Positions 37,426 through 64,000 of a DNA stretch of 64,000 bases are shown here, one piece after another (within the stretch, counting starts at the first letter, position 1; the number at the start of each line of letters is the position of its first letter). Under the pieces are notes generated by a model that worked only from the letters and a program-made list of their open reading frames with translations, was not told the origin of the DNA and did no database searches. The stretch spans positions 1,860,001 to 1,924,000 of the forward strand of contig NZ_CP120653.1 in the NCBI RefSeq assembly GCF_030545015.1, in the 5' to 3' direction. The stretch comes from Myroides sp. JBRI-B21084. Its GTDB lineage: Bacteria; Bacteroidota; Bacteroidia; Flavobacteriales; Flavobacteriaceae. The position numbers and the translations under genes are program-made.

Positions 37426-38358
37426 TTAAAAGAATCGCGGCGAGTTCACGCGGCGGTATTTGTTAAACAATTCAAAGCGCATAAAAATCTCATGTGAACC
37501 GTTGTTGTAGTTGCGTAATGCTCGTATATCGCTGTCGTAACTATAGCCTACAAATAACCCTTTGCTTACTTGAAAGCCTACTAATGCACTCCAAGCTGCG
37601 TCCCAACGGTATGCTGCTCCTAAGGTTAACTTTTCGTTGATTAAAAAGTTTCCCGTGATGTCTGCTTGTAAGGGCGCGCCTTCTACTGCTTTTAATAAAA
37701 AGGCTGGCTTGAATTTTAACATCGGATTCAGCTCAAATACATGACCTCCCATTAAGAAAAAGTGCATTCTTTGGTTCATCGTGCTTTGAATGTTGTCATC
37801 GTAGCGGGTGCTCTCTAAGAAATAAGGTACCGATAATCCTACGTAACTTTTGTTGGTATGCCAGTAAACACCTGCTCCTATGTTGGGAGTGAATTGATTG
37901 CTGATATCGTTTTGTACTTGTGGATCGTTCGGGTTGTACTTATTTAATTTTGAATACGATACATTTAAAAGGTTCGCCGAGCCTTTTAATCCAAAACTTA
38001 ACTTGCTATCGCGGTTGTTTAGATCAACTGTGTACGAAAAATCTACGCTTAATGTATTCTCATCCGTTACTCCTAACGCATCGTTTACAAAACTAATTCC
38101 TAAGCCTACTTTGCTCTCTGAAATAGGTGTGTTGATTGAAAACGAATTGGTTCGGGGTGCTCCTTCTAAGCCTACCCATTGGCTGCGGTGTAAACCAAAT
38201 ATGCTTAACGCTCCTCTACTTCCTGCATACGCCGGGTTGATGTTGATGGTGTTGTACATATAGTTGGTGTACTGTGGATCTTGTTGGGAATGTGCTTGTG
38301 CACATCCCAACAAAGTTAATCCTAACAATAATCTATTGATATTTCTTGAAATATTCAT
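37426..38358 (-). CDS. PorP/SprF family protein paired with the giant adhesin
   Basis: ATG 38358 begins MNISRNINRLLLGLTLLGCAQAHSQ; it is preferred to 38427, which would overlap the giant gene. The product is 310 residues. The mature start QQDPQYTNYMYNTININPAYAG is the family's diagnostic opening, and the barrel ends RRVNSPRFF. SprF, the Flavobacterium homologue, is needed for SprB to reach the surface, and here the gene lies 13 bp after the giant adhesin. The LLGC sequence also resembles a lipobox, so signal peptidase II processing cannot be excluded. Confidence 0.9.
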   Translation of the reverse strand: MNISRNINRLLLGLTLLGCAQAHSQQDPQYTNYMYNTININPAYAGSRGALSIFGLHRSQWVGLEGAPRTNSFSINTPISESKVGLGISFVNDALGVTDENTLSVDFSYTVDLNNRDSKLSFGLKGSANLLNVSYSKLNKYNPNDPQVQNDISNQFTPNIGAGVYWHTNKSYVGLSVPYFLESTRYDDNIQSTMNQRMHFFLMGGHVFELNPMLKFKPAFLLKAVEGAPLQADITGNFLINEKLTLGAAYRWDAAWSALVGFQVSKGLFVGYSYDSDIRALRNYNNGSHEIFMRFELFNKYRRVNSPRFF

Positions 38359-38371
38359 ATCCGTTTGCTTT

Positions 38372-47300: not shown

Positions 47301-50300
47301 ATGTTAGCCGAACTACATGTTGCTGGCGTATTGCTAATTGTTGGTGTATCTGGTGTTACTAACTGTGCTCCGATTTGGAACGCTGCTGTTGCTACCGAAG
47401 TACATCCTGATCCATTGGTCGCTGTTAATGTATAAGCAACTCCTGGCGTCATACCTGTGATTACACCTGTTCCTGCAGATGGTCCTGCTGGTGCAAACGT
47501 GTATGAATAACTTGGATCAAAATTCGTGATTGTTGCTGTCCCTGCTGCTGTACATGTAGCTGCTGCTACTGTAATTGCTGGAACTACTGGCGTTGTTAAC
47601 ATTGGTTGGATGCTGAAACTTGCTGATGATGCTGAAGTACAACTTCCATTATTAGTAGTTACTACATAAGTAGTACCCGCTGTCATTCCACTAATTACTC
47701 CTGTTACAGTATCCACTGCTATTGATGGATCTGCTGGTGTAAACGTATATGTATTGCCTGATACCACATTAGTTATCGTTGCTACACCCGCTGCACTACA
47801 CGTTGCCGCTGTTACGCTGATTGTTGGCGTTGCTGGAGTTACTAACTGTGCTCCGATTTGGAATGCAACCATTGCTACCGAAGTACATCCTGAACCATTG
47901 GTCGCTGTTAATGTATAATCAACTCCTGGTGTCATACCTGTGATTACACCTCCAGTTGTCGCTGCTGGTCCTGCTGGTGCAAACGTGTATGAATAACTTG
48001 GATCAAAATTCGTGATTGTTGCTGTTCCTGCTGCTGTACATGTAGCTGCTGCTACTGTAATTGCTGGAACTACTGGCGTTGCTAATTGTGCTTGAACACT
48101 AAAGCTTAATGATGCTGTTGATGTACAACTTCCATTATTAGTAGTTACTGTGTATACTTCTCCCGCTGTCATACCACTAATCACACCCGTTGTGGTGTCA
48201 ACTGTTGGACCCACTGGTGCAAATGTATATGTATTGCCCGATACCACATTAGTTATCGTTGCAACACCCGCTGCGCTACACGTTGCCGCCGTAGTGCTTA
48301 TTGCTGGCGTTGCTGGTGTTACTAACTGTGCCCCGATTTGGAATGCAACCGTAGCTGTTGATGTACAACCCGATGCATTTGTAGCTGTTAATGTATAATC
48401 AACTCCTGGTGTCATACCTGTGATTACTCCTGTTCCTGCAGATGGTCCTGCTGGTGCAAACGTGTATGAATAACTCGGATCAAAATTCGTGATCGTTGCC
48501 GTACCTGCTGCTGTACATGTAGCTGCTGCTACTGTAATTGCTGGAACTACTGGTGTTGTTAACATTGGTTGGATGCTGAAACTTGCTGATGATGCTGAAG
48601 TACAACTTCCATTATTTGTTGTTACCGTATAGCTTGTGCCTGCAACCAAGTTACTAATCACACCCGTTGTGGTGTCAACTGTTGGACCCACTGGTGCAAA
48701 TGTATATGTATTGCCCGATACCACATTAGTTATCGTTGCAACACCCGCTGCGCTACACGTTGCCGCTGTTACGCTGATTGTTGGCGTTGCTGGTGTTACT
48801 AACTGTGCCCCGATTTGGAATGCAACCGTAGCTGTTGATGTACAACCCGATGCATTTGTAGCTGTTAATGTATAATCAACTCCTGGTGTCATACCTGTGA
48901 TTACTCCTGTTCCTGCAGATGGTCCTGCTGGTGCAAACGTGTATGAATAACTTGGATCAAAATTCGTGATTGTTGCCGTACCTGCTGCTGTACATGTAGC
49001 TGCTACTACTGTAATTGCTGGAACTACTGGTGTTGTTAACATTGGTTGGATGCTGAAACTTGCTGATGATGCTGAAGTACAACTTCCATTATTAGTAGTT
49101 ACTACATAAGTAGTACCCGCTGTAATACCACTAATCACACCCGTTGTGGTGTCAACTGTTGGACCCACTGGTGCAAATGTATATGTATTGCCCGATACCA
49201 CATTAGTTATCGTTGCAGTTCCTACTGCGCTACACGTTGCTGCCGTAGTGCTGATTGTTGGCGTTGCTGGAGTTACTAACTGTGCCCCGATTTGGAATGC
49301 AACCGTTGCTGTTGATGTACAACCCGATGCATTAGTAGCTGTTAATGTATAATCAACTCCTGGTGTCATACCTGTGATTACGCCTCCTGTTGTCGCTGCT
49401 GGTCCTGCTGGTGCAAACGTGTATGAATAACTTGGATCAAAATTCGTGATCGTTGCCGTACCTGCTGCTGTACATGTAGCTGCTGCTACTGTAATTGCTG
49501 GAACTACTGGTGTTGCTAATTGTGCTTGTACACTAAAGCTTAATGATGCTGTTGATGTACAACTTCCATTATTAGTAGTTACTGTGTATACTTCTCCCGC
49601 TGTCATACCACTAATCACACCCGTTGTGGTGTCAACTGTTGGACCCACTGGTGCAAATGTATATGTATTGCCTGATACCACATTAGTTATCGTTGCAACA
49701 CCCGCTGCGCTACACGTTGCCGCTGTTACGCTGATTGTTGGCGTTGCTGGAGTTACTAACTGTGCTCCGATTTGGAACGCTGCTGTTGCTGTTGATGTAC
49801 AACCCGATGCGTTAGTAGCTGTTAATGTATAATCAATTCCTGGTGTCATACCTGTGATTACGCCTGTTCCTGCAGATGGTCCTGCTGGTGCAAACGTGTA
49901 TGAATAACTTGGATCAAAATTCGTGATCGTTGCAGTTCCTGCTGCTGTACATGTAGCTGCTGTGGTGCTGATTGTTGGAACTACTGGCGTTGTTAACATT
50001 GGTTGGATGCCGAAACTTGCTGATGATGCTGAAGTACAACTTCCATTATTAGTAGTTACTGTGTATACTTCTCCCGCTGTCATACCACTAATCACACCCG
50101 TTGTGGTGTCAACTGTTGGACCCACTGGTGCAAATGTATATGTATTGCCCGATACCACATTAGTTATCGTTGCAGTTCCTACTGCTGTACACGTTGCCGC
50201 TGTTACGCTGATTGTTGGCGTATCTGGTGTTACTAACTGTGCTCCGATTTGGAACGCTGCTGTTGCTACCGAAGTACATCCTGATCCATTGGTCGCTGTT

Positions 50301-53300
50301 AATGTATAAGCAACTCCTGGTGTCATCCCTGTGATTACGCCTGTTCCTGCAGATGGTCCTGCTGGTACAAACGTGTATGAATAACTCGGATCAAAATTCG
50401 TGATCGTTGCCGTACCTGCTGCTGTACATGTAGCTGCTGCTACTGTAATTGCTGGAACTACTGGTGTTGCTAATTGTGCTTGTACACTAAAGCTTAATGA
50501 TGCTGTTGATGTACAACTTCCATTATTAGTAGTTACTACATAAGTAGTACCCGCTGTCATACCACTAATCACACCCGTTGTGGTGTCAACTGTTGGACCC
50601 ACTGGTGCAAATGTATATGTATTGCCTGATACCACATTAGTTATCGTTGCAGTTCCTACTGCTGTACACGTTGCCGCTGTTACGCTAATTGTTGGCGTTG
50701 CTGGAGTTACTAACTGTGCTCCGATTTGGAACGCTGCTGTTGCTGTTGATGTACAACCCGCTGCGTTAGTAGCTGTTAATGTATAATCAACTCCTGGTGT
50801 CATACCTGTGATTACACCTCCAGTTGTCGCTGCTGGTCCTGCTGGTGCAAACGTGTATGAATAACTCGGATCAAAATTCGTGATCGTTGCTGTTCCTGCT
50901 GCTGTACATGTAGCTGCTGTGGTGCTGATTGTTGGAACTACTGGCGTTGTTAACATTGGTTGAATGCCGAAACTTGCTGATGATGCTGAAGTACAACTTC
51001 CATTATTAGTAGTTACTGTGTATACTTCTCCCGCTGTCATACCACTAATCACACCCGTTGTGGTGTCAACTGTTGGACCCACTGGTGCAAATGTATATGT
51101 ATTGCCTGATACCACATTAGTTATCGTTGCAGTTCCTACTGCTGTACACGTTGCCGCTGTTACGCTAATTGTTGGCGTATCTGGTGTTACTAACTGTGCT
51201 CCGATTTGGAATGCAACCGTTGCTGTTGATGTACAACCCGCTGCGTTAGTAGCTGTTAATGTATAATCAACTCCTGGTGTCATACCTGTGATTACACCTC
51301 CAGTTGTCGCTGCTGGTCCTGCTGGTGCAAACGTGTATGAATAACTCGGATCAAAATTCGTGATCGTTGCCGTACCTGCTGCTGTACATGTAGCTGCTGC
51401 TACTGTAATTGCTGGAACTACTGGTGTTGCTAATTGTGCTTGTACACTAAAGCTTAATGATGCTGTTGATGTACAACTTCCATTATTAGTAGTTACTACA
51501 TAAGTAGTACCCGCTGTCATACCACTAATCACACCCGTTGTGGTGTCAACTGTTGGACCCACTGGTGCAAATGTATATGTATTGCCCGATACCACATTAG
51601 TTATCGTTGCAACACCCGCTGCACTACACGTTGCCGCTGTTACGCTGATTGCTGGTGTTGCTGGAGTTACTAACTGTGCCCCGATTTGGAATGCAACCGT
51701 TGCTGTTGATGTACAACCCGATGCATTAGTAGCTGTTAATGTATAATCAACTCCTGGTGTCATACCTGTGATTACACCTGTTCCTGCAGATGGTCCTGCT
51801 GGTGTAAACGTGTATGAATAACTCGGATCAAAATTCGTGATCGTTGCTGTTCCTGCTGCTGTACATGTAGCTGCTGTGGTGCTGATTGTTGGAACTACTG
51901 GCGTTGTTAACATTGGTTGAATGCCGAAACTTGCTGATGATGCTGAAGTACAACTTCCATTATTAGTAGTTACTGTGTATACTTCTCCCGCTGTCATACC
52001 ACTAATCACACCCGTTGTGGTGTCAACTGTTGGACCCACTGGTGCAAATGTATATGTATTGCCTGATACCACATTAGTTATCGTTGCAGTTCCTACTGCT
52101 GTACACGTTGCCGCTGTTACGCTAATTGTTGGCGTATCTGGTGTTACTAACTGTGCTCCGATTTGGAATGCAACCGTTGCTGTTGATGTACAACCCGCTG
52201 CGTTAGTAGCTGTTAATGTATAATCAACTCCTGGTGTCATACCTGTGATTACACCTCCAGTTGTCGCTGCTGGTCCTGCTGGTGCAAACGTGTATGAATA
52301 ACTCGGATCAAAATTCGTGATCGTTGCCGTACCTGCTGCTGTACATGTAGCTGCTGCTACTGTAATTGCTGGAACTACTGGTGTTGCTAATTGTGCTTGT
52401 ACACTAAAGCTTAATGATGCTGTTGATGTACAACTTCCATTATTAGTAGTTACTACATAAGTAGTACCCGCTGTCATACCACTAATCACACCCGTTGTGG
52501 TGTCAACTGTTGGACCCACTGGTGCAAATGTATATGTATTGCCCGATACCACATTAGTTATCGTTGCAACACCCGCTGCACTACACGTTGCCGCTGTTAC
52601 GCTGATTGCTGGTGTTGCTGGAGTTACTAACTGTGCCCCGATTTGGAATGCAACCGTTGCTGTTGATGTACAACCCGATGCATTAGTAGCTGTTAATGTA
52701 TAATCAACTCCTGGTGTCATACCTGTGATTACACCTGTTCCTGCAGATGGTCCTGCTGGTGTAAACGTGTATGAATAACTTGGATCAAAATTCGTGATCG
52801 TTGCCGTACCTGCTGCTGTACATGTAGCTGCTGCTACTGTAATTGCTGGAACTACTGGTGTAGCTAACTGCGATTGTACGCTAAAGCTTAATGATGCTGT
52901 TGATGTACAACTTCCATTATTAGTAGTTACTACATAAGTAGTACCCGCTGTCATACCACTAATCACACCCGTTGTGGTGTCAACTGTTGGACCCACTGGT
53001 GCAAATGTATATGTATTGCCCGATACTACATTAGTTATCGTTGCAACACCCGCTGCACTACACGTTGCCGCTGTTACGCTGATTGTTGGCGTTGCTGGAG
53101 TTACTAACTGTGCCCCGATTTGGAATGCAACCGTTGCTGTTGATGTACAACCCGATGCGTTAGTAGCTGTTAATGTATAATCAACTCCTGGTGTCATACC
53201 TGTGATTACGCCTGTTCCTGCAGATGGTCCTGCTGGTGCAAACGTGTATGAATAACTTGGATCAAAATTCGTGATCGTTGCTGTTCCTGCTGCTGTACAT

Positions 53301-56300
53301 GTAGCTGCTGTGGTGCTGATTGTTGGAACTACTGGTGTTGTTAACATTGGTTGGATGCTGAAACTTGCTGATGATGCTGAAGTACAACTTCCATTATTAG
53401 TAGTTACTACATAAGTAGTACCCGCTGTCATACCACTAATCACACCCGTTGTGGTGTCAACTGTTGGACCCACTGGTGCAAATGTATATGTATTGCCCGA
53501 TACCACATTAGTTATCGTTGCAACACCCGCTGCGCTACACGTTGCCGCTGTTACGCTGATTGTTGGCGTTGCTGGAGTTACTAACTGTGCTCCGATTTGG
53601 AACGCTGCTGTTGCTGTTGATGTACAACCCGATGCGTTAGTAGCTGTTAATGTATAAGCAACTCCTGGTGTCATACCTGTGATTACACCTGTTCCTGCAG
53701 ATGGTCCTGCTGGTGCAAACGTGTATGAATAACTCGGATCAAAATTCGTGATCGTTGCTGTTCCTGCTGCTGTACATGTAGCTGCTGCTACTGTAATTGC
53801 TGGTACTACTGGCGTTGTTAACATTGGTTGGATGCTGAAACTTGCTGATGATGCTGAAGTACAACTTCCATTATTAGTAGTTACTACATAAGTAGTACCC
53901 GCTGTAATACCACTAATCACACCCGTTGTGGTGTCAACTGTTGGACCCACTGGTGCAAATGTATATGTATTGCCCGATACCACATTAGTTATCGTTGCAG
54001 TTCCTACTGCGCTACACGTTGCCGCTGTTACGCTGATTGTTGGCGTTACTGGAGTTACTAACTGTGTTCCGATTTGGAACGCTGCTGTTGCTACCGAAGT
54101 ACATCCTGATCCATTGGTCGCTGTTAATGTATAATCAATTCCTGGTGTCATCCCTGTGATTACGCCTCCAGTTGTCGCTGCTGGTCCTGCTGGTGCAAAC
54201 GTGTATGAATAACTTGGATCAAAATTCGTGATCGTTGCCGTACCTGCTGCTGTACATGTAGCAGCAGTTGTACTTATTATAGGTGTATTAATAACACATA
54301 AATTAGCTGGATCAGATTCTAATAAAATACAAACATTTTCATTATGCTTAACTATAACCTGATAATCATAATCATTCATAGCTAATGTTGCTCCTGTAAT
54401 AGTTAATGTACTGCTAGTAGCTCCTGAATAAACACCTCCATTGGTGATATTTGACCATGTAGCTCCATTATTAGTACTTACTTGCCATTGATACGTTATA
54501 TTTAAACTAGAATCAGTTGCTGGTGGAACTGTATAATCAGGTGTGCCTGCAACAAAAGTTATTGTATTTTGAGCAGTTGCAATTACTGTAAAGGTTGCAT
54601 TACCTCCTACAGTAGTTGACTGTTGAACTGGTTGCGTTGTAATAGTCGCATTTGTAGCATTTTCTACATTAGTATAACTTCCTATGTAAGAAGCAGCTAC
54701 TACTTTTCCATTAATAGCTACTGCTGGTGCTCCAATTCCATAAACTCCACCATCTCCGCCGTCTGCTGTAGTTGAATTATAGTATTCATTTGCATCTGAA
54801 CAACCATCGTTGTCTGAATCTAAATCTAAACTGTTTGGTATTCCGTCTCCATCAAAATCACAACTAACTGAGGCATAAAAAGACCATCCTAAATTGTCAA
54901 CACCTATACCTGTTGTTTTAACCCTCAATGTGGAAACTAAAGTCGAAGACGTACCAATAATACCAAAAGCTTGATTGTCTAAACCTCCATTATCACTAAA
55001 GGCTCCAGTCTGTGCATTATAATTTACTGATGGCCTTGAAGGGAATGAAACTGCATTAAAAAGATTATTTGCCAAACCTCCATTTACTTCAATAATTCCT
55101 GTAAAACCAGTGGAACCTGAACTAGGATCAAAATCAGTCATAGCAAAAGCAATTTCACTTGCTGGCACAGCTGGTGACCAAGTTACGATATATTCGCCAT
55201 CTCCTGTTGATGAAAATCTTCTAGGTGCACCTAAAGTTGGATCTATATTCAAAGGATACTGACCATTACCTAATAGTGTAAAAGTAGCCGCTGGGTTTAT
55301 GGCCATAATATCTGCAGTAGTAACTGTAAATATTGAATTTGTAGTCCCCTTCCATGCTCCTGTTTCATTTTGTCCGATATAACCACTACTACATTCTTCT
55401 AAATCTAAAATTCCATCATTATCATCGTCATAATCACAGAAATTATCAATTCCGTCACTATCTGTATCTGCTGTTACAATTATATTATCAATACTGAATG
55501 AAGATGAAGTACTTGAAATACAACCTGAAGTATTGGTTGCAATAAGCGAATAACTTGTTCCAGGTATCATACCTGTGATTACACCTGATCCTGCAATTGG
55601 TCCTGTTGGGGTAAATGTATAGGTATATGCTGAGTTAAAATTTGTTATAGTTGCTGTACCTACTGCATTACAAGTTGCTGCTGTAACAGCAATTATTGGT
55701 TCTGTTGGTGCTAATGTAACTGTTAAATCACGTGTAGCGCTAACACTTGGACAAATTCCACTAGCTGGTATGGTATATGTCATTGTTGCGGTACCTGCAG
55801 CAACAGGTGTGATTACACCTGTATTTGCATCTATAGTTGCAACATTAATGTCTGATGAAGTCCATGAGCCGCTTGCTACGCTTGATGTAAATGTAGTAGT
55901 GCCGTTTGAACATATAGTTTGAGTTCCACTTAAAATTCCAGCTGAAACTGTTGTTAATGTAATGGTTGCTGCATTAGAAAGGTTTCCTTGTGCATCTTTA
56001 CCTGTATATTGTATTGGTGTAGGACTTCCTGTAAATCCAGAAGAAGGTGTAAATACTACTTGGTCTAAACCATTAATTGCCCAAGTTCCTTCACCAGGAA
56101 TAACAAATGAAACTATATCTCCTTGAACATCGGTAATAATACTTATAGCTGTACCAGGTGCAATTAAACTAAATGAATTAGCTACAACTGCATCTCCAGT
56201 TGTATCGTTTGTTAATATATTAATTGCTGGATAGGCTGTAGTGGAAATCACATAACAAGCACTATCATTAGTTGCAATTGGTAAAATATCTAATAGTGCT

Positions 56301-59300
56301 GAATTTGAATTTACACTTAAACATACATTATTTGGATGTGCAAGTACAGCTTTGTATAAATACCCATCCATTGATACTGTTGCACCCGTTAAGTTTAAAG
56401 TTGCAGTTGTAGCACCTGAATAAATACCTCCATTAGTAACATTTGACCAAGTTGCACCTCCATTAGTACTTACTTGCCACTGATAAGTAAGTAAAGGACT
56501 TACATCTGATGCAGGTGGTACTGAATAATTAGGAATACCTGTTGTAAACGTAGTTGTAGATTGTGCATTAGCTAATACGCTAAAAGTTGTTGAACCTCCT
56601 GTACTTATAATTTTATTTATAGGTTCCGTTGTTACTGTTGCACTTACAGCTGTTTGTGAATTTGTTATATTACCTGTGTAAGTAGCACCCACAACGGTAC
56701 CGTTTGTATTAATAGCTGGTGGATTTCCAGTACCAAAGTAATTATTTCCATCTGTACCAATTGCGGTAATGCTGTTATAATATTCATTTGCGTCTGGACA
56801 ACCGTCATTATCACTATCTAAATCACTGCTATTAAAAACACCATCCCCGTCAATATCACCAACACAATAATCAAAAGCTAAAACTAAGTCATCAAATTCT
56901 AAAACAGAATTTCCAACATTATAAAAATATACTCTTAAAGTATAATTTGATGATGGATTTAAATAATAGTCTGTATTGTTATAAGCTCTTCTCCCATTAG
57001 GGTAAGTTCCTCCGCCTTCACCAGCAATTTGGTGAATTGTACCTAAAATAGTGGTATTGTTTGATGTTAATGTATTATTTGTAATTTCAAATGCAAGAGA
57101 ATGCTGAGGATTTGTAATTGATCTATTATAATAACCAATCCAATCAACATAACCATTAAATGGTGTTGCTACCGATGTAAAAGAAAATTCAATATATTCA
57201 TTATTTGTTTTAGCTTCTTCTAAAGTAGTTGCTGTAATACCTGTAAATTCTAAATGTCCTGTTGGGTTATTATTTGCATCAAGACTTGAAATATGTACAT
57301 AATTAATGCCAGACCCAATAGTAGTCGAAGTTATAGAACTTGGCACAACAATAGGTGCCATATTTGCAGGTGAAGGAGTAAAAGTTGATACACTAAAAGG
57401 TTGCGTAATTAAAGCAACATTTGGCAAGCCTGTTGGGTTTACGTTGTCACCAGCGAAAGTTGTGTCTCTACACCCCTCTGAAGTATCTAAAATACCATCG
57501 TTATCGTTATCCAAATCGCAGCTGTCAATAACTCCATCGTTATCGTTATCAGAAGATCCTGTTTCTGTAGTGTTACAACATACACTTGTTGAAGCATCAT
57601 AAGATGATCCTGAACCTTGTCCTAACCCTACTATTGTAGGTACACCGTAATTTGCGCTTCCTACAGTAGTGTTAACAGTACCATTAATACTTCCATTCGA
57701 GTTTAATTGACTATAGGTAATAGTAGCATCACCTTCTACGGCATCGGGGCATCCATCGTTATCTGAATCTACATCTAAATAATTAGGAATTGAATCTCCA
57801 TCTGTATCACCGCATCCTTTAAAATAAATATCATCTATTGCAAAATCATTTCCAGTACCACCCGTAGAAATATTATAAATTTCAAATCGGTATTGCTCAG
57901 TTAAAGAACCCGTTGTAAAAGTTCCACTGGAATTTGTCCAAGTTTGCGAAGTTGAAATACTACCTGTACTACCACTAGCTACAATAGAATTATCACTAAT
58001 TTTTATAACTCTGTATCCTAAATTAACAGGATATGTTGGTGCCTCTAAAGGATTGGGATTAGCATTCAAAGCCCAAAAGCCAAAATTATAATTAGTATTA
58101 GCCGCTAAATAAAATGTGCTATTAAAGAAAATACCTGTATTGTTTGAACCATTAACTGCCAGAAACATATCTTCGGCAGTACCGTCGGTATGCCCAACAA
58201 TTCCATCGAAAAAATTATGCGCATTGTCTACATTAGCATTCATTACTAAGTAACCACCTGCTCCTATATTATTACCATCGGCATAATTTGGATCTAAAAA
58301 GCTTGCAAAAGTATAGCCAGTTCCAGGAGTTGATTGTAAGTTACGCACAAACCAACCCGTATTACTTCCAAAAGTTCCTGAATTTTCAATTGTAAATAAA
58401 CTGCCACACTCAACTGTGTCAAGTATACCGTCGTTGTCATCATCTAAATCACATTCGTCACCAATTGTATCTTTATCTGAATCAACAAAACTTGGAGAAG
58501 CAGGATCACAAGGAAAATTACAGTTTGTATCTATAACAGCTGTGTTTAATGTAGTACCTATTGCTTGGCCTGTTGTGTTATTATAATTTGCAGGATTTGC
58601 TAGTTGTGGTAAACCTTGAGTATTAACACACGCAGTTGTAAAACATAAATTTGTTGTTACTGGTTGGTTATATGCGCCTATTAACGCTCCTGAATTACCA
58701 CCAGGTAAAGTTGATGTTATTAATTGACTTAATGTTATAGTTGCTGATCCTTCTAAAGCGTCAGGACAACCATCGTTATCTGAATCTAAGTCTAAGAAAT
58801 TAGGAATAGTATCTAAATCAAAATCATCGTTGCAGTTTGTATCGTAATTATAATGTAATGATTGATTATAATTTGTTAAATTTAATATCGCTGATACTTC
58901 ATAAACACTTACTGCAGGTGAAGAGCCTGTAGTTTTGAATTTAATTTGATAATATTTATATGAAGTAGTTGGATGATTTTGGTTAGTGAAAACTTTAGGT
59001 GACGAATTTGTTGAAGTATCAACATTTGGAGATAACAATACCCAAGTGTTGTTGTCATTAGATCCGTATAAAACTGCACTTGATAATGTTCCCCAACTAC
59101 CAGAAGAATAAACAGACATACTTGTTAATAACACTTCTGTAGGATATGCAACATTATACAATACTGCATCTGTTTTTATACTACCTGCAGTAATATTATG
59201 ATTTTGTGAAGTTGATGATCCTGTTGTTCCATTGTGCATAGTTGGTATATCTGCACCACTCACAACTGCAATATTATTAACAGTACTTGCTAATGGTGTA

Positions 59301-60424
59301 CTTACTTTTTTAATAACACTAGCTTGTGTACTTGTTAAAAAACAATTTGGACTTTCAACAGCATTTAAAATACCATCGTTATCATTGTCGATATCAGCAT
59401 TGTTAGCAACCCCATCTGAATCGTAATCACATAAAGGTTGCATGCTATTTGGCTTACATAAAACTTGTAAACATGCCTGTGGAGTAATATCAACAATTAA
59501 ATTACTAGTGCTTGCACTTGTGTTAATATTATCAAATCCATTAGAAAAACCTTCATTATATTCACTACAACTAATATTTACCATTCCTGGTACGTTAGTA
59601 ACATTAACTGTAATAACAGAACTTTGGCCAGCTGCTAAAGTTAAATTTGAAACTGTTATTACATTTGATCCAGCAGTTGCTGTAACTGATGGACTACCTC
59701 CAGTGATTGTTATATTAGGACTTGCAGCAATTATAATACCCGATGGTAATAAATCTGTAAAAGCTAAACCCGAAAAAGTTTGACCTGTGGTTGAAGGGTT
59801 TGTAATAGTAAATGTATATGTTGCTGTGTTACCATCAATAATAGTTGTTGGCGATATAGTTTTTTTAAGCACTGCACCTTCAATATCAACAGATACAAAT
59901 AAGCTTCCTGCATAAAGAATGTCATTAGAAGTTGAAGTTAGCCTAAGATCTACAGAAATAGGAGATGCTGTTGTTGGTAATATTCCATTTGCATTTAAGA
60001 TATCTGAATCATAAAAATCAGTATAACCTTGAGCAGGATTTCTTGCTAGATAGTTACCACTCATTGCTGGACCACCATCTGCGCTAACATTATTATTAGA
60101 AGTAAATGCAATTGAAGAATTCATTACATCTGTAGCAATATTTTCAAGTGGGTCAATTAAATTGGTTAAAGATGTTCCAGTTTTACCAAATGATACTAAA
60201 TCACCTACAGGATAACTTGTATAATAAGAATTTCTATTTCCCCATAAACCTGATACACCAACTACTGCATTAGCACTACTTGATAAAGGCACTTTAACAC
60301 TAGGAAAGGTTGCTGTGTACGATGCAGTATTACCTCCTCCTCCTCCATATGTATGCCAATAATCTGCTAAAGCACATGTCTGTATTTTGAATTTGGATTT
60401 GAATATACAATTTGTAAAGTCCAT
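38372..60424 (-). CDS. Giant SprB-like T9SS type B adhesin, main open frame (7,350 codons, signal peptide out of frame)
   Basis: Order from N to C: the rest of an N-terminal beta domain (to about 59.9 kb); a DUF11-like module (about 59.9-59.55 kb); sandwich modules separated by acidic thrombospondin type-3-like repeats such as CDYDSDGVANNADIDNDNDG (near 59.4, 58.8, 58.4, 57.75, 57.5, 56.8, 55.4 and 54.8 kb); 15 + 14 alternating ~80-residue modules (54.3-47.36 kb); Ig-like SGGDQVSCSPASLTA modules (to 44.6 kb); DUF11; cadherin-like/Big_17 repeats (44.05-39.4 kb); HYR-like modules (DTTAPEFV, TWTATDACGNTT); and a type B sorting domain (NAVTPNGDGMNDEFVL, YNRWGVLVYE). SprF and OmpA genes follow. 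By analogy with SprB it is a mobile surface adhesin for gliding or attachment. The apparent ATG at 60424 is not a real start: the signal peptide is in the -1 neighbouring frame (60367-61020). Confidence 0.85.
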   Translation of the reverse strand: MDFTNCIFKSKFKIQTCALADYWHTYGGGGGNTASYTATFPSVKVPLSSSANAVVGVSGLWGNRNSYYTSYPVGDLVSFGKTGTSLTNLIDPLENIATDVMNSSIAFTSNNNVSADGGPAMSGNYLARNPAQGYTDFYDSDILNANGILPTTASPISVDLRLTSTSNDILYAGSLFVSVDIEGAVLKKTISPTTIIDGNTATYTFTITNPSTTGQTFSGLAFTDLLPSGIIIAASPNITITGGSPSVTATAGSNVITVSNLTLAAGQSSVITVNVTNVPGMVNISCSEYNEGFSNGFDNINTSASTSNLIVDITPQACLQVLCKPNSMQPLCDYDSDGVANNADIDNDNDGILNAVESPNCFLTSTQASVIKKVSTPLASTVNNIAVVSGADIPTMHNGTTGSSTSQNHNITAGSIKTDAVLYNVAYPTEVLLTSMSVYSSGSWGTLSSAVLYGSNDNNTWVLLSPNVDTSTNSSPKVFTNQNHPTTSYKYYQIKFKTTGSSPAVSVYEVSAILNLTNYNQSLHYNYDTNCNDDFDLDTIPNFLDLDSDNDGCPDALEGSATITLSQLITSTLPGGNSGALIGAYNQPVTTNLCFTTACVNTQGLPQLANPANYNNTTGQAIGTTLNTAVIDTNCNFPCDPASPSFVDSDKDTIGDECDLDDDNDGILDTVECGSLFTIENSGTFGSNTGWFVRNLQSTPGTGYTFASFLDPNYADGNNIGAGGYLVMNANVDNAHNFFDGIVGHTDGTAEDMFLAVNGSNNTGIFFNSTFYLAANTNYNFGFWALNANPNPLEAPTYPVNLGYRVIKISDNSIVASGSTGSISTSQTWTNSSGTFTTGSLTEQYRFEIYNISTGGTGNDFAIDDIYFKGCGDTDGDSIPNYLDVDSDNDGCPDAVEGDATITYSQLNSNGSINGTVNTTVGSANYGVPTIVGLGQGSGSSYDASTSVCCNTTETGSSDNDNDGVIDSCDLDNDNDGILDTSEGCRDTTFAGDNVNPTGLPNVALITQPFSVSTFTPSPANMAPIVVPSSITSTTIGSGINYVHISSLDANNNPTGHLEFTGITATTLEEAKTNNEYIEFSFTSVATPFNGYVDWIGYYNRSITNPQHSLAFEITNNTLTSNNTTILGTIHQIAGEGGGTYPNGRRAYNNTDYYLNPSSNYTLRVYFYNVGNSVLEFDDLVLAFDYCVGDIDGDGVFNSSDLDSDNDGCPDANEYYNSITAIGTDGNNYFGTGNPPAINTNGTVVGATYTGNITNSQTAVSATVTTEPINKIISTGGSTTFSVLANAQSTTTFTTGIPNYSVPPASDVSPLLTYQWQVSTNGGATWSNVTNGGIYSGATTATLNLTGATVSMDGYLYKAVLAHPNNVCLSVNSNSALLDILPIATNDSACYVISTTAYPAINILTNDTTGDAVVANSFSLIAPGTAISIITDVQGDIVSFVIPGEGTWAINGLDQVVFTPSSGFTGSPTPIQYTGKDAQGNLSNAATITLTTVSAGILSGTQTICSNGTTTFTSSVASGSWTSSDINVATIDANTGVITPVAAGTATMTYTIPASGICPSVSATRDLTVTLAPTEPIIAVTAATCNAVGTATITNFNSAYTYTFTPTGPIAGSGVITGMIPGTSYSLIATNTSGCISSTSSSFSIDNIIVTADTDSDGIDNFCDYDDDNDGILDLEECSSGYIGQNETGAWKGTTNSIFTVTTADIMAINPAATFTLLGNGQYPLNIDPTLGAPRRFSSTGDGEYIVTWSPAVPASEIAFAMTDFDPSSGSTGFTGIIEVNGGLANNLFNAVSFPSRPSVNYNAQTGAFSDNGGLDNQAFGIIGTSSTLVSTLRVKTTGIGVDNLGWSFYASVSCDFDGDGIPNSLDLDSDNDGCSDANEYYNSTTADGGDGGVYGIGAPAVAINGKVVAASYIGSYTNVENATNATITTQPVQQSTTVGGNATFTVIATAQNTITFVAGTPDYTVPPATDSSLNITYQWQVSTNNGATWSNITNGGVYSGATSSTLTITGATLAMNDYDYQVIVKHNENVCILLESDPANLCVINTPIISTTAATCTAAGTATITNFDPSYSYTFAPAGPAATTGGVITGMTPGIDYTLTATNGSGCTSVATAAFQIGTQLVTPVTPTISVTAATCSAVGTATITNVVSGNTYTFAPVGPTVDTTTGVISGITAGTTYVVTTNNGSCTSASSASFSIQPMLTTPVVPAITVAAATCTAAGTATITNFDPSYSYTFAPAGPSAGTGVITGMTPGVAYTLTATNASGCTSTATAAFQIGAQLVTPATPTISVTAATCSAAGVATITNVVSGNTYTFAPVGPTVDTTTGVISGMTAGTTYVVTTNNGSCTSASSASFSIQPMLTTPVVPTISTTAATCTAAGTATITNFDPSYSYTFAPAGPSAGTGVITGMTPGVDYTLTATNASGCTSTATVAFQIGAQLVTPATPTISVTAATCSAAGVATITNVVSGNTYTFAPVGPTVDTTTGVISGMTAGTTYVVTTNNGSCTSTASLSFSVQSQLATPVVPAITVAAATCTAAGTATITNFDPSYSYTFTPAGPSAGTGVITGMTPGVDYTLTATNASGCTSTATVAFQIGAQLVTPATPAISVTAATCSAAGVATITNVVSGNTYTFAPVGPTVDTTTGVISGMTAGTTYVVTTNNGSCTSTASLSFSVQAQLATPVVPAITVAAATCTAAGTATITNFDPSYSYTFAPAGPAATTGGVITGMTPGVDYTLTATNAAGCTSTATVAFQIGAQLVTPDTPTISVTAATCTAVGTATITNVVSGNTYTFAPVGPTVDTTTGVISGMTAGEVYTVTTNNGSCTSASSASFGIQPMLTTPVVPTISTTAATCTAAGTATITNFDPSYSYTFTPAGPSAGTGVITGMTPGVDYTLTATNASGCTSTATVAFQIGAQLVTPATPAISVTAATCSAAGVATITNVVSGNTYTFAPVGPTVDTTTGVISGMTAGTTYVVTTNNGSCTSTASLSFSVQAQLATPVVPAITVAAATCTAAGTATITNFDPSYSYTFAPAGPAATTGGVITGMTPGVDYTLTATNAAGCTSTATVAFQIGAQLVTPDTPTISVTAATCTAVGTATITNVVSGNTYTFAPVGPTVDTTTGVISGMTAGEVYTVTTNNGSCTSASSASFGIQPMLTTPVVPTISTTAATCTAAGTATITNFDPSYSYTFAPAGPAATTGGVITGMTPGVDYTLTATNAAGCTSTATAAFQIGAQLVTPATPTISVTAATCTAVGTATITNVVSGNTYTFAPVGPTVDTTTGVISGMTAGTTYVVTTNNGSCTSTASLSFSVQAQLATPVVPAITVAAATCTAAGTATITNFDPSYSYTFVPAGPSAGTGVITGMTPGVAYTLTATNGSGCTSVATAAFQIGAQLVTPDTPTISVTAATCTAVGTATITNVVSGNTYTFAPVGPTVDTTTGVISGMTAGEVYTVTTNNGSCTSASSASFGIQPMLTTPVVPTISTTAATCTAAGTATITNFDPSYSYTFAPAGPSAGTGVITGMTPGIDYTLTATNASGCTSTATAAFQIGAQLVTPATPTISVTAATCSAAGVATITNVVSGNTYTFAPVGPTVDTTTGVISGMTAGEVYTVTTNNGSCTSTASLSFSVQAQLATPVVPAITVAAATCTAAGTATITNFDPSYSYTFAPAGPAATTGGVITGMTPGVDYTLTATNASGCTSTATVAFQIGAQLVTPATPTISTTAATCSAVGTATITNVVSGNTYTFAPVGPTVDTTTGVISGITAGTTYVVTTNNGSCTSASSASFSIQPMLTTPVVPAITVVAATCTAAGTATITNFDPSYSYTFAPAGPSAGTGVITGMTPGVDYTLTATNASGCTSTATVAFQIGAQLVTPATPTISVTAATCSAAGVATITNVVSGNTYTFAPVGPTVDTTTGVISNLVAGTSYTVTTNNGSCTSASSASFSIQPMLTTPVVPAITVAAATCTAAGTATITNFDPSYSYTFAPAGPSAGTGVITGMTPGVDYTLTATNASGCTSTATVAFQIGAQLVTPATPAISTTAATCSAAGVATITNVVSGNTYTFAPVGPTVDTTTGVISGMTAGEVYTVTTNNGSCTSTASLSFSVQAQLATPVVPAITVAAATCTAAGTATITNFDPSYSYTFAPAGPAATTGGVITGMTPGVDYTLTATNGSGCTSVAMVAFQIGAQLVTPATPTISVTAATCSAAGVATITNVVSGNTYTFTPADPSIAVDTVTGVISGMTAGTTYVVTTNNGSCTSASSASFSIQPMLTTPVVPAITVAAATCTAAGTATITNFDPSYSYTFAPAGPSAGTGVITGMTPGVAYTLTATNGSGCTSVATAAFQIGAQLVTPDTPTISNTPATCSSANIVKVTNLVSGVNYVVSRTGPTVDLTTGVISGMTAGETYTVKAVSTSGSCSSAASVTFSLQPQFGTPAAPVSGGNQSVCIPTGSSATLTAVASSQAGTTITWYENSNGTGITSPTYTSSTAYTRTIYAQAVSSQGCASALTAVTQTFYDAPVITNYTTNDPICEVNTKTLYATTPGGVWTVQSGGGTISAASSPNVFTYTPANVTTPTSVTVRYTLTPVAPSVCPPATHDVTFTVNPNPDAPTVGSVIHPTCINANGSFKIANYLATNTYTITSTDGDVISGPTATGTVTATAGTYTISVSNTYGCTGSASIDVTLNPQPATPLTPTISNTPATCSSANIVKVTNLVSGVNYVVSPTGPTVDLTTGVISGMIAGETYTVKAVSIPGGCSSAASTSFSLQAQLVTPAAPTSGGDQVSCSPASLTATASAEAGATITWYADATSTTPVTPTLSTVGMVTYYAEATLGACKSATRTAVTLTINQTPTAPTSGGNITECAASPIQTLTATATSPGNTVVWYTQATGGTALATAPTLNAVGTVTYYAEAVTSANCSSTTRTPVTLTINATPAAPTSGGDQVSCSPASLTASASAEAGATITWYADATSTTPVTPTLSTVGMVTYYAEATLGTCKSATRTPVTLTINQTPDTPTISNTPATCSSANIVKVTNLVSGVNYVVSPTGPTVDVTTGVISGMIAGETYNVKAVSTPGGCSSAASTSFSLQAPLVTPAAPTSGGDQVSCSPASLTATASAEAGATITWYADATSTTPVTPTLSTVGTVTYYAEATLGACKSATRTLVTLTINQTPEAPTSGGDITECATSPIQTLTAIATSTGNTVTWYTQATGGTIVTSPTLNTVGTVTYYAEAVTSANCSSTTRTPVTLTIKATPAVPTLVEIIQPSCTSANGSFKIGNYLATNTYSITSADGSVISGPTATGLVTAAAGTYSIKSILNGCESTPVTVTINPQECADIVTVKTDGQTMYVAGSTVTYTITVTNNGPTAATNVTVADTAPAGTTISSWTGSNGSSGTGDVNNVLPTLAVGQTVTYTVNVAVPATMTGNLTNTVTVTSVTPDPNPACTTCTDTDTPNTTFAENDINNTYADTPVSGNVKTNDSDAEGHGQMVTPSITVTPEGTLFLNANGTYNFIPAAGFTGTFVHTYTICDNATPQACDTATLTIEVMPDPSDPTSPNDVVANNDTATTPEGQPVTIDVKANDFDPNGDAFEIDPTSITQPANGTVTVNPDGTITYTPNPGFEGTDTFTYTVCDDATPTPACDTATVSVNVVPANNTNETYANDDAYNGDQYQPITGNVLDNDTDPDVTGNDQFVTGYTQPAHGTVTIDPITGEFTYTPTDEYTGPLSFTYTICDNGTPQACDIATVYLTINPANETLAVNDINNTYENTPVSGSVSTNDSDPQGHTQTVTPSTTTTAEGTLVLNANGTYTFTPAAGFTGTFVHTYTVCDSGTPQACDTATLTIEVMPDPSDPTSPNDVVANNDTATTPEGQPVTIDVKANDFDPNGDAFEIDPTSITQPANGTVTVNPDGTITYTPNPGFEGTDTFTYTVCDDATPTPACDTATVSVNVVPANNTNETYANDDAYNGDQYQPITGSVLDNDTDPDDNATGNIQTVKSNTQPAHGSVQMNPDGTFTYTPTPGDEYTGPLSFTYEVCDNGNPQACDIATVYLTINPANETLAVNDINNTYENTPVSGSVSTNDSDPQGHTQTVTPSTTTTAEGTLVLNANGTYTFTPAAGFTGTFVHTYTVCDSGTPQACDTATLTIEVMPDPSDPTSPNDVVANNDTATTPEGQPVTIDVKANDFDPNGDAFEIDPTSITQPANGTVTVNPDGTITYTPNPGFEGTDTFTYTVCDDATPTPACDTATVSVNVVPANNTNETYANDDAYNGDQYQPITGSVLDNDTDPDDNATGNIQTVKSNTQPAHGSVQMNPDGTFTYTPTPGDEYTGPLSFTYEVCDNGNPQACDTATVYLTINPANETLAVNDINNTYVNTPVSGSVSTNDSDPQGHTQTVTPSTTTTAEGTLVLNANGTYTFTPAAGFTGTFVHTYTVCDSGTPQACDTATLTIEVMPNPFTGPNDVVANNDTATTEEGQPVTINVKANDFDPNGDTVGTPTVVTQPANGTVTVNPDGTITYTPNPGFEGTDTFTYTVCDDATPTPACDTATVSVNVVPTPEPGENVIYANDDAYNGDGPTIEGSVFDNDSDPDSDTSTIHTFTVVDQPKHGMVTIDPITGEFIYTPEPGYVGPDSFRYTVCDDGDPQACDTATVYLSVNSAPSLEITKAGSYVDTNEDGIANAGDEIHYVFTVKNTGNVVLTNVTVSDDNAVVSGGPLASLAIGATDSTTFTAVHVLTATDLAAGYVYNLATAKGTDPTGAEVTDASVDPNPCSTCPVEPTCVDCTIVAIPNTTHAIDDINNTFVNTPVSGNVLTNDFDREGHTQSIDLTSVTQPANGTVQMNADGSYTYTPNAGFTGVDTFTYTICDNGTPQACETATVTINVEGLIDPNVNVVVANNDAVITKVDTPIAIVVLANDFDPQGDSFSVQKGSLTKPSHGKVTLNADGTVTYTPDPGYVGEDSFMYTICDNGTPQACEEATVIVTILPASNLNSTYAVDDSYYINCSSLSDMNLLDNDYDLEKDGQYIDIKINPVIGPKHGTLELHEDGTFTYTVNGCYVGPDSFVYEVRDTNGDQAIDRATVYLMIQDTTAPEFVEALPSDVTVECNAVPAAPVLTAVDTCGSAEVSYKEARIDGACANSYTLERTWTATDACGNTTVHTQIVTVEDTTGPSFVGTMPAAEIYIRCEELAAAETLQAQDECGEVEVRSYDEKVEGDCESKYDIIRTWVATDSCGNETRYTQTIHLSCPMEIFNAVTPNGDGMNDEFVLKGINCYPGNTVEIYNRWGVLVYETRDYNSRGNTFKGYSEGRVTVKQHSKLPTGTYYYVVKYTYDLGDGRQYPTEQAGYLHLETN
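39400..44050 (-). repeat. Cadherin-like/Big_17 repeat block with ~0.9-kb higher-order copies
   Basis: The block encodes modules of the form NDTATTPEGQPVTIDVKAND ... GFEGTDTFTYTVCDDATPT. A higher-order unit of 906 bp (302 codons) is present at about 41384-42289 and 42290-43195 with almost no differences. A third 897-bp variant follows to about 44090, and more diverged copies lie at 39.4-41.3 kb. Confidence 0.85.
44630..47355 (-). repeat. Ig-like and VTNLVSG module block
   Basis: Repeated ~70-residue Ig-like modules (SPASLTATASAEAGATITWY ... GTVTYYAEA) alternate with diverged copies of the neighbouring modules (TISNTPATCSSANIVKVTNL). The units near 44.9-45.15, 45.4-45.6 and 45.87-46.1 kb are close copies. 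Confidence 0.75.
47355..54300 (-). repeat. Tandem array of 477/480-bp A-B units (15 A and 14 B modules)
   Basis: Module A (AATCTAAGTATITNFDPSYS ... GVITGMTPGVDYTL) and module B (AATCSAAGVATITNVVSGNT ... TTTGVISGMTAGTTYVV) alternate strictly, 15 A and 14 B by my count. One A-B unit is 159 or 160 codons. The DNA of neighbouring units is highly similar. A 957-bp double unit is repeated without visible differences (about 50850-51815 versus 51807-52772). A single diverged A-like copy remains near 55.5-55.7 kb. Confidence 0.88.
60367..60424 (-). other. Frameshift junction in the giant adhesin gene
   Basis: The two frames overlap for 58 bp and differ by -1. Within the overlap the minus strand has AAAA in TCA-AAA-TAC, a single-codon slip site, but no classic X-XXY-YYZ heptamer. 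The most natural repair is one extra base between CATGTG and CTTTAGCAG (about 60371-60376), giving HV-x-LADYW. Confidence 0.75.
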
Positions 60425-61020
60425 CCACCTCCATATGAATGTGAATATGTACCATTAGTATTGTTTTTTACATCGGCAACCCAATAACGTCCTCCTGTCC
60501 CACCTGCAGAGCTGGTTGAATACATTGTAGTTGGACTAGTAATATATTTAGTTACATCAAATACAACCTGATTATAACTTGTACCCGAATTTGATAATGC
60601 ATCGGTTAATGGAATTACAGAGTAATTTGTTTGCCCTGGTACTTTAAATTTAAAATCGTTTAAAAAAAAAGGACCTGAAGTTTCTAGATATAAGTAAGCC
60701 TTAACAATTGTACTATTAGCAGGTAATACTAAGTCGGCAGATGTAGATCTGATAGTTGTTGCATCAGCATCTAAATCTAAAAGTGTATGTGAATGAGTTG
60801 GAAAACCTGAAGTACCGCTTGTAGCTCCACTATCAAAAGTATTTCCTGTTTTTGTTGTTCCACCTTTTATTTCATTTTGATATCTGATAATAGCTTGCCC
60901 ATTTGAAGTAAAACTTATACTCAAAGCAAATAACATCGCCAAAACATAATAATTAAACTTTACCGATTTTTTAATCGATAAAGAAAATTCTAATAAGAAT
61001 TTAGAATAATTATTTTTCAT
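60367..61020 (-). CDS. 5' part of the giant adhesin gene (signal peptide and N-terminal domain), ending at a frameshift
   Basis: This 217-codon frame encodes a long signal peptide (hydrophobic part YYVLAMLFALSISFTSNGQ) and a beta-rich N-terminal domain. That domain has DVTKYITSPTTMYSTSSAGG and RYWVADVKNNTNGTYSHSYG, ending abruptly GGWTLQIVYSNPNSKYRHVL then TAG. This is the standard beginning of flavobacterial type B-sorted giant proteins, and its natural continuation (LADYWHTYGGGGG...) is in the overlapping frame of 38372-60424. It is best read as one gene, 38372-61020, of about 7,550 codons, with one base missing (or two extra) near 60.37-60.42 kb. An internal M29 is an alternative start. 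Confidence 0.85.
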   Translation of the reverse strand: MKNNYSKFLLEFSLSIKKSVKFNYYVLAMLFALSISFTSNGQAIIRYQNEIKGGTTKTGNTFDSGATSGTSGFPTHSHTLLDLDADATTIRSTSADLVLPANSTIVKAYLYLETSGPFFLNDFKFKVPGQTNYSVIPLTDALSNSGTSYNQVVFDVTKYITSPTTMYSTSSAGGTGGRYWVADVKNNTNGTYSHSYGGGWTLQIVYSNPNSKYRHVL

Positions 61021-61314
61021 ATCTAGAACAATTTCAAAATTTTAACATAAATATATGAATTTTATAAACAAGTAACATAAATATGTTATATAAAAAAATA
61101 TTTTAACCAAATTTTTACAAAAACATTAAAAACAAACGTTTTTTAAAATCATTTAATAAAGATTATTAATAATTTTTAGTCATATACGTTTAAAAATTAA
61201 TTCAAAAAAATAATTTTAACATATGTATATTTTTGTTATTTTTCACATTTTAATAACGTAAACATGTTATTATAAGTCACTAATAAAATCACAAGTACAA
61301 AATTAGAAGCAGTT

Positions 61315-61331
61315 CTACAAAAAATTTGTAG
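61315..61331. promoter_or_regulatory. CTACAAA/TTTGTAG inverted repeat
   Basis: CTACAAA-AAA-TTTGTAG, perfect 7-bp arms, overlapping the first half of the bipartite element at 61327. Confidence 0.5.
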
Positions 61332-61366
61332 TACCACAAATGAGGTGTTTGTAGAATTTGTTCTAC
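61327..61366 (-). promoter_or_regulatory. Bipartite GTAGAA palindrome element, copy upstream of the giant adhesin
   Basis: TGTAGTACCACAAATG (61327-61342), then GTAGAATTTGTTCTAC (61351-61366), the latter extended to TTGTAGAA-TTTG-TTCTACAA (61349-61368). Both halves and the 24-bp offset are shared with 20193-20232. It lies about 307 bp upstream of the adhesin ATG, in the same orientation relative to the gene. Confidence 0.65.
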
Positions 61367-62447: not shown

Positions 62448-64000
62448 TTATAAAACAATATAAAATGTTACTTCTGTTTCAACGTTTTGTTTGCTTTTAA
62501 CATTAATTTTTCCATTAAACAATTCTACAATTTCTTTACAAAGATTTAATCCTAATCCTGCCCCTAAATCTTTAACATCGGCTGCTGCTTTGCCTTGTTG
62601 GTAACTATTAAAAATATGCTTTAAATCTTCTTCACTTATGCCGGCACCATTATCTTTTATGGTTACTTTTAAAGTGTGGGTATTGTTTTTACTTTTCTCT
62701 ATACCTACCCATGCATGTATCACGCCTTTACGTGTAAATTTATTAGCATTTCCTACAATGTTATAAAATAATTGATGTATTTTAACGATGTCTGATGTAA
62801 TCATTACATCATTTTTTACATGGTTTTCTACAATTAATTTATTTTCATTATTTTCAACAAATTGCGTTAACGCTTTTAAAATTTCATCTAATTCTGTTTT
62901 TAAATTAAATGTTGATTTATTTAGTGTTAGCTTTTTGTTTTCGTTTTTAGAAAATTCTAAAATTTGATTGGCTAATAACGATAATGACTGTGTTGTGAAT
63001 TGTATTGATTTTAACGAATCTTGAACGTCTTCATCGGTTACTTGCTTACTAATTCCACGCGTATAAATTGATATAATATTTAAAGGCGATCTTATTTCGT
63101 GGCTTATCATTCCAACAATTCTATTTTTAAAATTTAAGTTTTGTTGAATTTTCTTTTGTGCTTTAACCAAGTTACTTTCGTACATAAATGCTAACCTGGT
63201 TAAAAAAGCTAATAATATTGATATTAGAACAATTAAACCAATTAAACCAATTACGGCATAATTGCGTATTTGCTTGTTTTGTTGGTATTGATCTTGAAAT
63301 TTTTTACGTGCATCGTTGGTAAAAGATACTAAAATATCGTTATACTTTGTTAGCAGCATGTTACTGTACGATAACAATTCTGAATTTACATTGAAAAAAT
63401 TAGTGTCTTGATTTTTACTGTTATTTTTTACCGTTGCTAATTTTTTCTTATAATTTAAAAATTCTTTTTGGTAATAATCATTAGTTGTTTTAAACAGGTT
63501 TTGAATTTGTTCTTCAATACTTCCTGAACTAACGTTTTTACCTTGACGAACTGTTAAAACTACTTTCGATTTTTCTTTTTGTACATCAACTTTACCCGAA
63601 ATAGCACTTCCTAATCTAGAGAATAATCCCTTTTTTTGAACACTATCAACAGATACAGATGTTTCTACATTTAAACTATCTATAACATCATCGTATTTTA
63701 TAGCGTTAATTTTAAACAAACCTTCATTTGTTTGTACACTTGGCTTAATTTCTACTTTACGTAACGAATCTATTTTTTTGTTAATATCGTTTACCGAAGT
63801 TTGCAACCCTTTATCTTTGTTTAAATACATTGAAAAAGTTGAACTTTTATCGGCCGTATGAACTAAGTTTTTAATGTTTTTATTTAGACTATCAAGCGCT
63901 TCATTGTACTTCACCAAATACTTTTCGTCTTTGGTTTGCATATAATATTGCAAATTATATTGCGCAGTAATATAATCGTTTTTAGTTAAATCGCTAAAGT
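62448..64000 (-). CDS. Membrane sensor histidine kinase, 5' end outside window
   Basis: The frame is open to the right edge (517 codons visible); the 'start' at 63953 is an internal TTG. The N-terminal ~240 visible residues are an extracytoplasmic, coiled, Lys/Asn/Asp-rich sensor region (e.g. YNEALDSLNKNIKNLV). One membrane helix follows (VIGLIGLIVLISILLAFL, near 63.23 kb). Then comes HisKA with MISHEIRSPLN (phospho-His codon near 63.10 kb) and HATPase_c with NIVGNANKFTRKG, DNGAGISEED and GAGLGLNLCKEIVE. A second N-terminal helix is expected outside the window. It is probably cotranscribed with the response regulator. Confidence 0.9.
   Translation of the reverse strand, partial: FSDLTKNDYITAQYNLQYYMQTKDEKYLVKYNEALDSLNKNIKNLVHTADKSSTFSMYLNKDKGLQTSVNDINKKIDSLRKVEIKPSVQTNEGLFKINAIKYDDVIDSLNVETSVSVDSVQKKGLFSRLGSAISGKVDVQKEKSKVVLTVRQGKNVSSGSIEEQIQNLFKTTNDYYQKEFLNYKKKLATVKNNSKNQDTNFFNVNSELLSYSNMLLTKYNDILVSFTNDARKKFQDQYQQNKQIRNYAVIGLIGLIVLISILLAFLTRLAFMYESNLVKAQKKIQQNLNFKNRIVGMISHEIRSPLNIISIYTRGISKQVTDEDVQDSLKSIQFTTQSLSLLANQILEFSKNENKKLTLNKSTFNLKTELDEILKALTQFVENNENKLIVENHVKNDVMITSDIVKIHQLFYNIVGNANKFTRKGVIHAWVGIEKSKNNTHTLKVTIKDNGAGISEEDLKHIFNSYQQGKAAADVKDLGAGLGLNLCKEIVELFNGKINVKSKQNVETEVTFYIVL

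Follow-up and report, generated by a model that had tools for sequence, protein, structure and literature searches.

Why would a giant surface adhesin and a second, separate response regulator be preceded by nearly the same 40 bp of DNA, and which protein reads them? The question arises from a stretch of 64,000 nucleotides from Myroides sp. JBRI-B21084 (the window, by which I mean the whole of that stretch), in which a first-pass annotation pointed to two 40-mers, at 20193-20232 and 61327-61366, that are identical at 34 of 40 bases, have 24 bp between the starts of their two parts in both copies, and lie 205 bp and 307 bp from the ATGs of two minus-strand genes (ATG at 19988 and 61020, respectively); all of these figures hold on recomputation. 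I will argue that the element is apparently what a sensor-controlled gene switch lands on in front of surface-adhesin and regulator genes in this Flavobacterium-like group, so that a single signal could determine when the cells turn sticky, and that the core idea of the annotation, a common operator of a LuxR-type regulator upstream of minus-strand genes, is well supported by the sequence comparisons.

A composite promoter and the genes behind it

On the minus strand, both 40-bp elements open a common composite promoter of 69 bp, which consists in order of an inverted repeat (GTAGAA-N4-TTCTAC), a half-site 23 bp on and, after 21 bp more, a -7 box (TAnnTTTG). The 40-bp unit is therefore real but was drawn too short, since it runs 21 bp on to a promoter box, and its description as a bipartite palindrome fits the right half, an inverted repeat, but not the left, which is a half-site only. 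Both window copies and the copy in a congeneric genome (G022), read on the minus strand, share the layout GTAGAACAARTTCTAC, 15 bp, GGTACTACA, exactly 21 bp, TAnnTTTG. The last of these is reported as the flavobacterial -7 box, spanning positions -12 to -5 (PMC9723704, PMC6847099). The Bacteroidetes sigma-A form of the box is present at both window sites, and with it set at -12 to -5 the centre of the inverted repeat falls at -65.5 and that of the box around the half-site at -42.5.

At the adhesin promoter (minus strand) the distal operator GTAGAACAAATTCTAC occupies 61351..61366 (centre about -65.5), the proximal half-site GGTACTACA 61327..61335 (box centre about -42.5) and the -7 box TAATTTTG 61298..61305, 21 bp past the half-site, which in the numbering of PMC6847099 predicts a start near 61293; a third box, GTAGAACTGCTTCTAA, with one mismatch, lies at 61303..61318 (about -25 to -10), where it overlaps the -7 box and may be a shut-off site. 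The suf-side regulator promoter, also on the minus strand, has its distal operator GTAGAACAAATTCTAC at 20217..20232, its proximal half-site GGTACTACA at 20193..20201 and its -7 box TATATTTG at 20164..20171, again 21 bp past the half-site and with a predicted start near 20159, and of the two window promoters it is the one that lacks the third box. A function of the element as an RNA hairpin was rejected because the element lies upstream of the predicted transcription start.

How specific are these parts? Within the window, GTAGAATTTGTTCTAC with up to 3 mismatches occurs five times against 1.21 expected (sd 1.08), a count that none of 100 shuffles reaches, and is exact only at the two element copies; TGTAGTACCAYAAATG, at the same tolerance, occurs seven times against 2.43 expected, with two exact occurrences. 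Across the genome to which the window belongs, the 16-base inverted repeat is matched 12 times at a tolerance of 2 mismatches, versus 7 times for the reversed pattern, and is thus only weakly specific when taken alone. The bipartite pattern (up to 3 mismatches) gives exactly the two window copies in the same genome and, in 100 further congeneric genomes, one match, upstream of the P0001 orthologue in G022; the reversed pattern gives none in either search. Many randomly placed copies had been named in advance as the outcome that would speak against a shared operator, and the genome scan left the claim standing.

A relaxed form of the composite pattern finds six sites in the 2.5 Mb of this genome and none when reversed; shortened by one base, it gives one 3-mismatch match. 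The clearer sites precede the adhesin unit (61298-61366), the second regulator P0001 (20164-20232), two exported-looking protein units and a curli-divergent gene. Of the exported-looking units, one is a 487-aa protein beside a second PorP-like cluster (site at contig position 84714) and the other a protein of at least 1088 aa, whose site at 1932562 follows a further regulator gene (L078:9857-10507; its product is 31% identical to P0002 and lacks the helix motif given below); neither the 487-aa nor the 1088-aa protein has a Pfam match, and they look exported by eye. The curli-related site, at 2378826, belongs to a 189-aa gene divergent from curlin-repeat and CsgG genes. The adhesin unit (minus strand) begins with a frame of 217 aa (60367..61020), with a signal-like N-terminus by eye and no Pfam or NCBIfam match, and continues with the giant SprB-like frame of 7350 aa (38372..60424) and a PorP/SprF-type adhesin partner (37426..38427); an OmpA/PD40 protein (35453..37414) belongs to the same cluster. 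In the final 599 residues of the giant frame there are Ig/cadherin-like repeats and, at the C-terminus, a T9SS type B signal (CHU_C, 88 bits). The 217-aa and 7350-aa frames overlap by 58 bases (60367-60424); two separate genes, phase variation or a mistake in the assembly could each account for this.

A weak composite site with two mismatches in the relaxed pattern lies at 35319..35385 (minus strand), in the gap between convergent genes and with no gene in front of it. Together with about 200 bases devoid of a long frame and a terminator-like hairpin, it makes up a minus-strand interval (35112-35385) that could specify a regulator-driven small RNA; conservation of that interval is not convincing, with six of seven relatives matching at E <= 0.01 and no match above 41.9 bits or longer than about 60 bases.

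Sites and one regulator family across the genus

Searches of 398 congeneric genomes found 31 sites, in 16 of them, for the form of the composite with parts 23 bp apart (27 fixed bases, at most 3 mismatches) and 98 sites, in 64 genomes, for the 22-bp form (at most 2 mismatches), with none for either reversed pattern; many of these genomes are related, so that the site counts are not independent. The spacing, which had been called fixed, is near-fixed, the arm-to-arm distance of the parts being either 22 or 23 bp in the genus as a whole and not any single value. In an alignment of 29 distinct sites, the central bases of the inverted repeat are conserved and a T stands at -27 in 27, though both had been left free in the search pattern, and the 15-base flanks are hardly conserved. 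A weight matrix scores its 29 training sites at 40.6 or above and 3 Mb of simulated sequence at 6.9 or below; sites outside the training set score 41.0 (L011, in the genome of the window), 39.5 (L059) and 30.1 (L100). The composite pattern is able to find candidate members in other genomes of the genus.

The window encodes two regulators that could be linked to these sites. P0002 (61705..62352, minus strand), beside the adhesin, has Response_reg and GerE domains (PF00072, 72.2 bits; PF00196, 55.5 bits; both above cut-off), as expected of a NarL/FixJ (LuxR-type) response regulator, and is accompanied by the histidine kinase P0005 (HisKA, HATPase_c; 62448..64000, minus strand), whose 525-aa frame runs 25 bases beyond the window end. 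P0001 (19350..19988, minus strand), on the suf side, is also of LuxR type (38.5 and 50.4 bits for the same two models, above cut-off), and the next gene after it encodes the histidine kinase P0004 (HisKA_3, HATPase_c; 18583..19332, minus strand). From this adjacency, P0002 with P0005 and P0001 with P0004 are presumably cognate pairs.

It is the P0002 family that keeps company with the operator. With at most one mismatch and within some 1.5 kb, the inverted repeat occurs at 29 of the 30 loci of best P0002 matches versus none of 28 loci of other LuxR-type regulators (L015-L042), and the sole exception, L119, is a sequence that ends 195 bases past the regulator. With no spacing preset, the half-site at these 30 loci falls at an offset of 22 (19 loci), 23 (six), 21 (one) or 32 (one), and the -7 box at 44 (21 loci) or 45 (four), six other offsets occurring once or twice each. 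All 30 linked orthologues carry T[VI]ST[YF]K[NT]R[IV]FEKL in the putative recognition helix, a motif absent from the aligned regulators of other types and from P0001. Among 20 mapped regions the site adjoins the P0002 orthologue in 10; it stands before the kinase gene in seven regions (L081-L085, L093, L094), after the regulator gene and before a large protein in four (L084, L085, L086, L092), and beside the orthologue in another arrangement in L088. In the window, a terminator-like hairpin 3' of the P0002 gene (61664..61686, minus strand) suggests that the operator begins a separate transcription unit, and a hairpin with exact 10-base arms between regulator gene and operator at 16 of the 30 loci makes the next gene there look like a separate unit too. 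Between the hairpin that follows P0002 and the operator there is another, at 61467-61500, with 12-base arms formed from GTAGAAC/GTTCTAC half-sites.

The association can also be followed at larger scale. Of the 98 sites of the 22-bp form, 77 have a listed P0002 homologue no more than 5 kb away, measured start to start; among the 21 that have none so near is at least one, in G283, that on the ORF map adjoins its regulator, which is not among the homologues listed. For the 23-bp form the figure is 12 of 31, and the other 19 comprise 13 in G000, G022, G107, G174 and G309, single sites in G027 and G283 (in the latter the regulator is again the unlisted one) and four in G150. The four in G150 (L050, L065, L071, L074) are all away from its P0002 homologue (43% identical), so that they may answer to another regulator or reflect a broader regulon. 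A regulator at E <= 1e-30 is found in 62 of the 64 genomes with a 22-bp-form site versus 76 of the 334 without one (kinship uncorrected); these 76, of 138 regulator-positive genomes, are without such a site at 2 mismatches, and the site genomes G027, G096 and G299 are without a regulator at that threshold. For the first 114 regulators listed, grouped in order of decreasing similarity to P0002, the share that have a site (of either form) no more than 5 kb away falls from 28/30 through 20/31 and 11/29 to 3/24. Family-wide, relatives of P0002 at E <= 1e-40 occur in three of 299 genomes, its own and two of one other genus, and in the latter (L165, L166) the -7 box is 32 bp past the half-site versus 21, one helical turn more.

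Two lineages have additional structures downstream of the operator. In seven loci of one lineage, the transcript predicted to arise from the operator after the regulator gene has a conserved leader hairpin (plus strand: L105:2353-2429, L106:2327-2404, L107:2368-2445 and L108:2356-2430; minus strand: L109:1237-1313, L114:1258-1328 and L121:1309-1382); the leader consensus folds at -33.9 versus -0.7 (sd 1.0) for column shuffles, and in the hairpin alone six of 17 pairs have changed sequence on both sides with pairing kept. Rfam gave no match in 11 regulator loci, L105 and L107 of these seven among them. In the other lineage (L111-L113, L118, L120), the intergenic DNA that separates the operator-promoter from the next gene contains an inverted repeat, GACGGC ... 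GCCGTC.

The likely binder, and what it would do

The annotation had proposed a NarL/LuxR-type response regulator as the binder, which stands as the likely class, and had treated the two encoded in the window as equal candidates, which does not, given that the adhesin-side protein (61705-62352) is the one linked to the operator genus-wide. P0002 with its kinase is the likely cognate factor of the operator, the regulator being narrowed to this one likely candidate and the regulon probably new but of known type. Composite architecture, conservation, spacing and linkage to the regulator were computed directly, and from them I place at roughly 80% the probability that the element is the operator of P0002, acting with the kinase P0005, and that it activates downstream genes through the fixed -7 box.

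If so, P0005 would sense a signal and phosphorylate P0002, two dimers of which would sit side by side, one near -65 on the inverted repeat and the other near -42 by way of the conserved half-site, close to where a -33 element would lie; P0002 would then recruit RNA polymerase to the fixed -7 box and turn on the gene downstream. The genes so switched would be the SprB-like adhesin unit, P0001/P0004 as a second tier, the two exported-looking units and the curli-divergent gene, and at the adhesin promoter the third box over the -7 box could stop transcription when much regulator is active. Binding, control by phosphorylation, activation as opposed to repression and the shut-off at the third box are in this scheme what I infer from the computed features.

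As to direction, the same regulator might act at these sites as a repressor. The third box of the adhesin promoter, which overlaps the -7 element in a classic repressing position, would suit such a role, but the suf-side promoter does without this box, and two conserved boxes near -65 and -42, upstream of the core promoter and at a fixed 21 bp from the -7 box, have the geometry of activation: centres near -65.5 and -42.5 are usual activator positions, and the one near -42 would fit a class II activator promoter. The -33 region is neutral in this respect, with TTG at two of 29 sites versus 2.6 expected by chance and hence no enrichment, which is compatible with activator dependence without proving it; the -33 motif is reported as much less evident in F. 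johnsoniae generally (PMC6847099). Repression thus seems unlikely to me.

It is more doubtful still that P0001 is the binder, regulating both itself and the adhesin. The composite site does stand before the P0001 gene or its orthologue in five genomes (G000, G022, G107, G174 and G309), as autoregulation predicts, but among 101 genomes strong matches to P0001 are confined to G000 and G022 (100 and 79%, the next by score being 28%), yet G004, G027 and G078, within the same 101, carry composite sites and have no orthologue; moreover, its putative recognition helix is unlike that of the linked family, and it is P0002 orthologues that the sites adjoin genus-wide. Against named genomes, P0001 and its G022 orthologue matched only Paenimyroides ummariense (Flavobacteriaceae; 65%), apart from one remote match (27%). 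P0001 as sole binder was rejected because it is absent from some site genomes and its recognition helix differs, and for these reasons it is more likely to be one of the genes that the operator controls, and is most simply read, with P0004, as a second tier under P0002. A scattered repeat of the REP or MITE-like kind, mobile or structural but without regulatory function, might be suggested by the presence of an inverted repeat at several locations, but the few copies, the poorly conserved flanks, the fixed distance to a promoter box and the genus-wide link to one regulator family make it scarcely credible, and it was rejected.

Returning to P0002 as activator, a broader and distinctly tentative picture, which I consider possible but on balance doubtful, is that of a hitherto undescribed, genus-wide adhesion switch in which one two-component system keeps its own tandem operator-promoter beside the regulator gene, and in which this promoter has come, from lineage to lineage, to stand before different genes (giant T9SS adhesins, curli-linked genes, further regulators). 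The third box of the adhesin promoter would provide shut-off at high activity, and another lineage would add a structured RNA leader, giving an output in the form of a pulse with an RNA layer.

Comparison with known systems

As the annotation had supposed, the operator seems to be of a form not previously described, inasmuch as no published description of it was found in the open-licence literature, and a search of open-licence papers for operators of related regulators, including EvgA and FimZ types, returned only the Gac-box, TGTAAG-N6-CTTACA (PMC11837529). Like the Gac/UvrY (GacA) system, the present one has a LuxR-type response regulator of a two-component pair and an 18-bp inverted repeat with TGTA...TACA ends and six central bases, the adhesin site of the window being TGTAGA-N6-TCTACA. 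However, the inner arm is GA/TC at the window operators instead of AG/CT (the suf-side one reads AGTAGA-N6-TCTACA), so neither matches the Gac-box, and the wider site sets, having been picked with GTAGAA/TTCTAC patterns, cannot speak to Gac-box identity. Two further differences are that the sites, as far as their neighbours are known, mostly adjoin protein genes and that the boxes are in tandem in a Bacteroidetes promoter. Membership in GacA/UvrY and the Gac-box was rejected on the inner arm bases and on the score of P0002 against the UvrY/SirA/GacA model (NF007018), its second NCBIfam model, which at 108.4 bits is under the cut-off of 280. Its first NCBIfam model is FimZ, a fimbria biosynthesis regulator (NF007403), at 113.3 bits against a cut-off of 271, so P0002 is no FimZ member, and its nearest solved structure by sequence is EvgA (5f64, 66.6 bits); the EvgA and FimZ types are response regulators of Proteobacteria.

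Among flavobacterial systems, the housekeeping promoter is described as -33 TTTG / -7 TAnnTTTG (PMC6847099) and shares its -7 box with the composite, which differs in having no TTG enrichment at -33 and a conserved operator half-site just upstream. The remFG-sprCDBF operon of F. psychrophilum likewise concerns a SprB-type gliding adhesin, but its reported promoters, sigma-54 and SM5, are of alternative types, and in the main text of that paper the terms 'response regulator' and 'LuxR' are absent (PMC9723704). The control described there for a SprB-type adhesin operon is by alternative sigma factor promoters (PMC9723704), and next to it a concrete operator with an exact promoter position, together with a candidate regulator, a candidate kinase and a set of proposed targets, makes the control of surface adhesion in this group directly testable.
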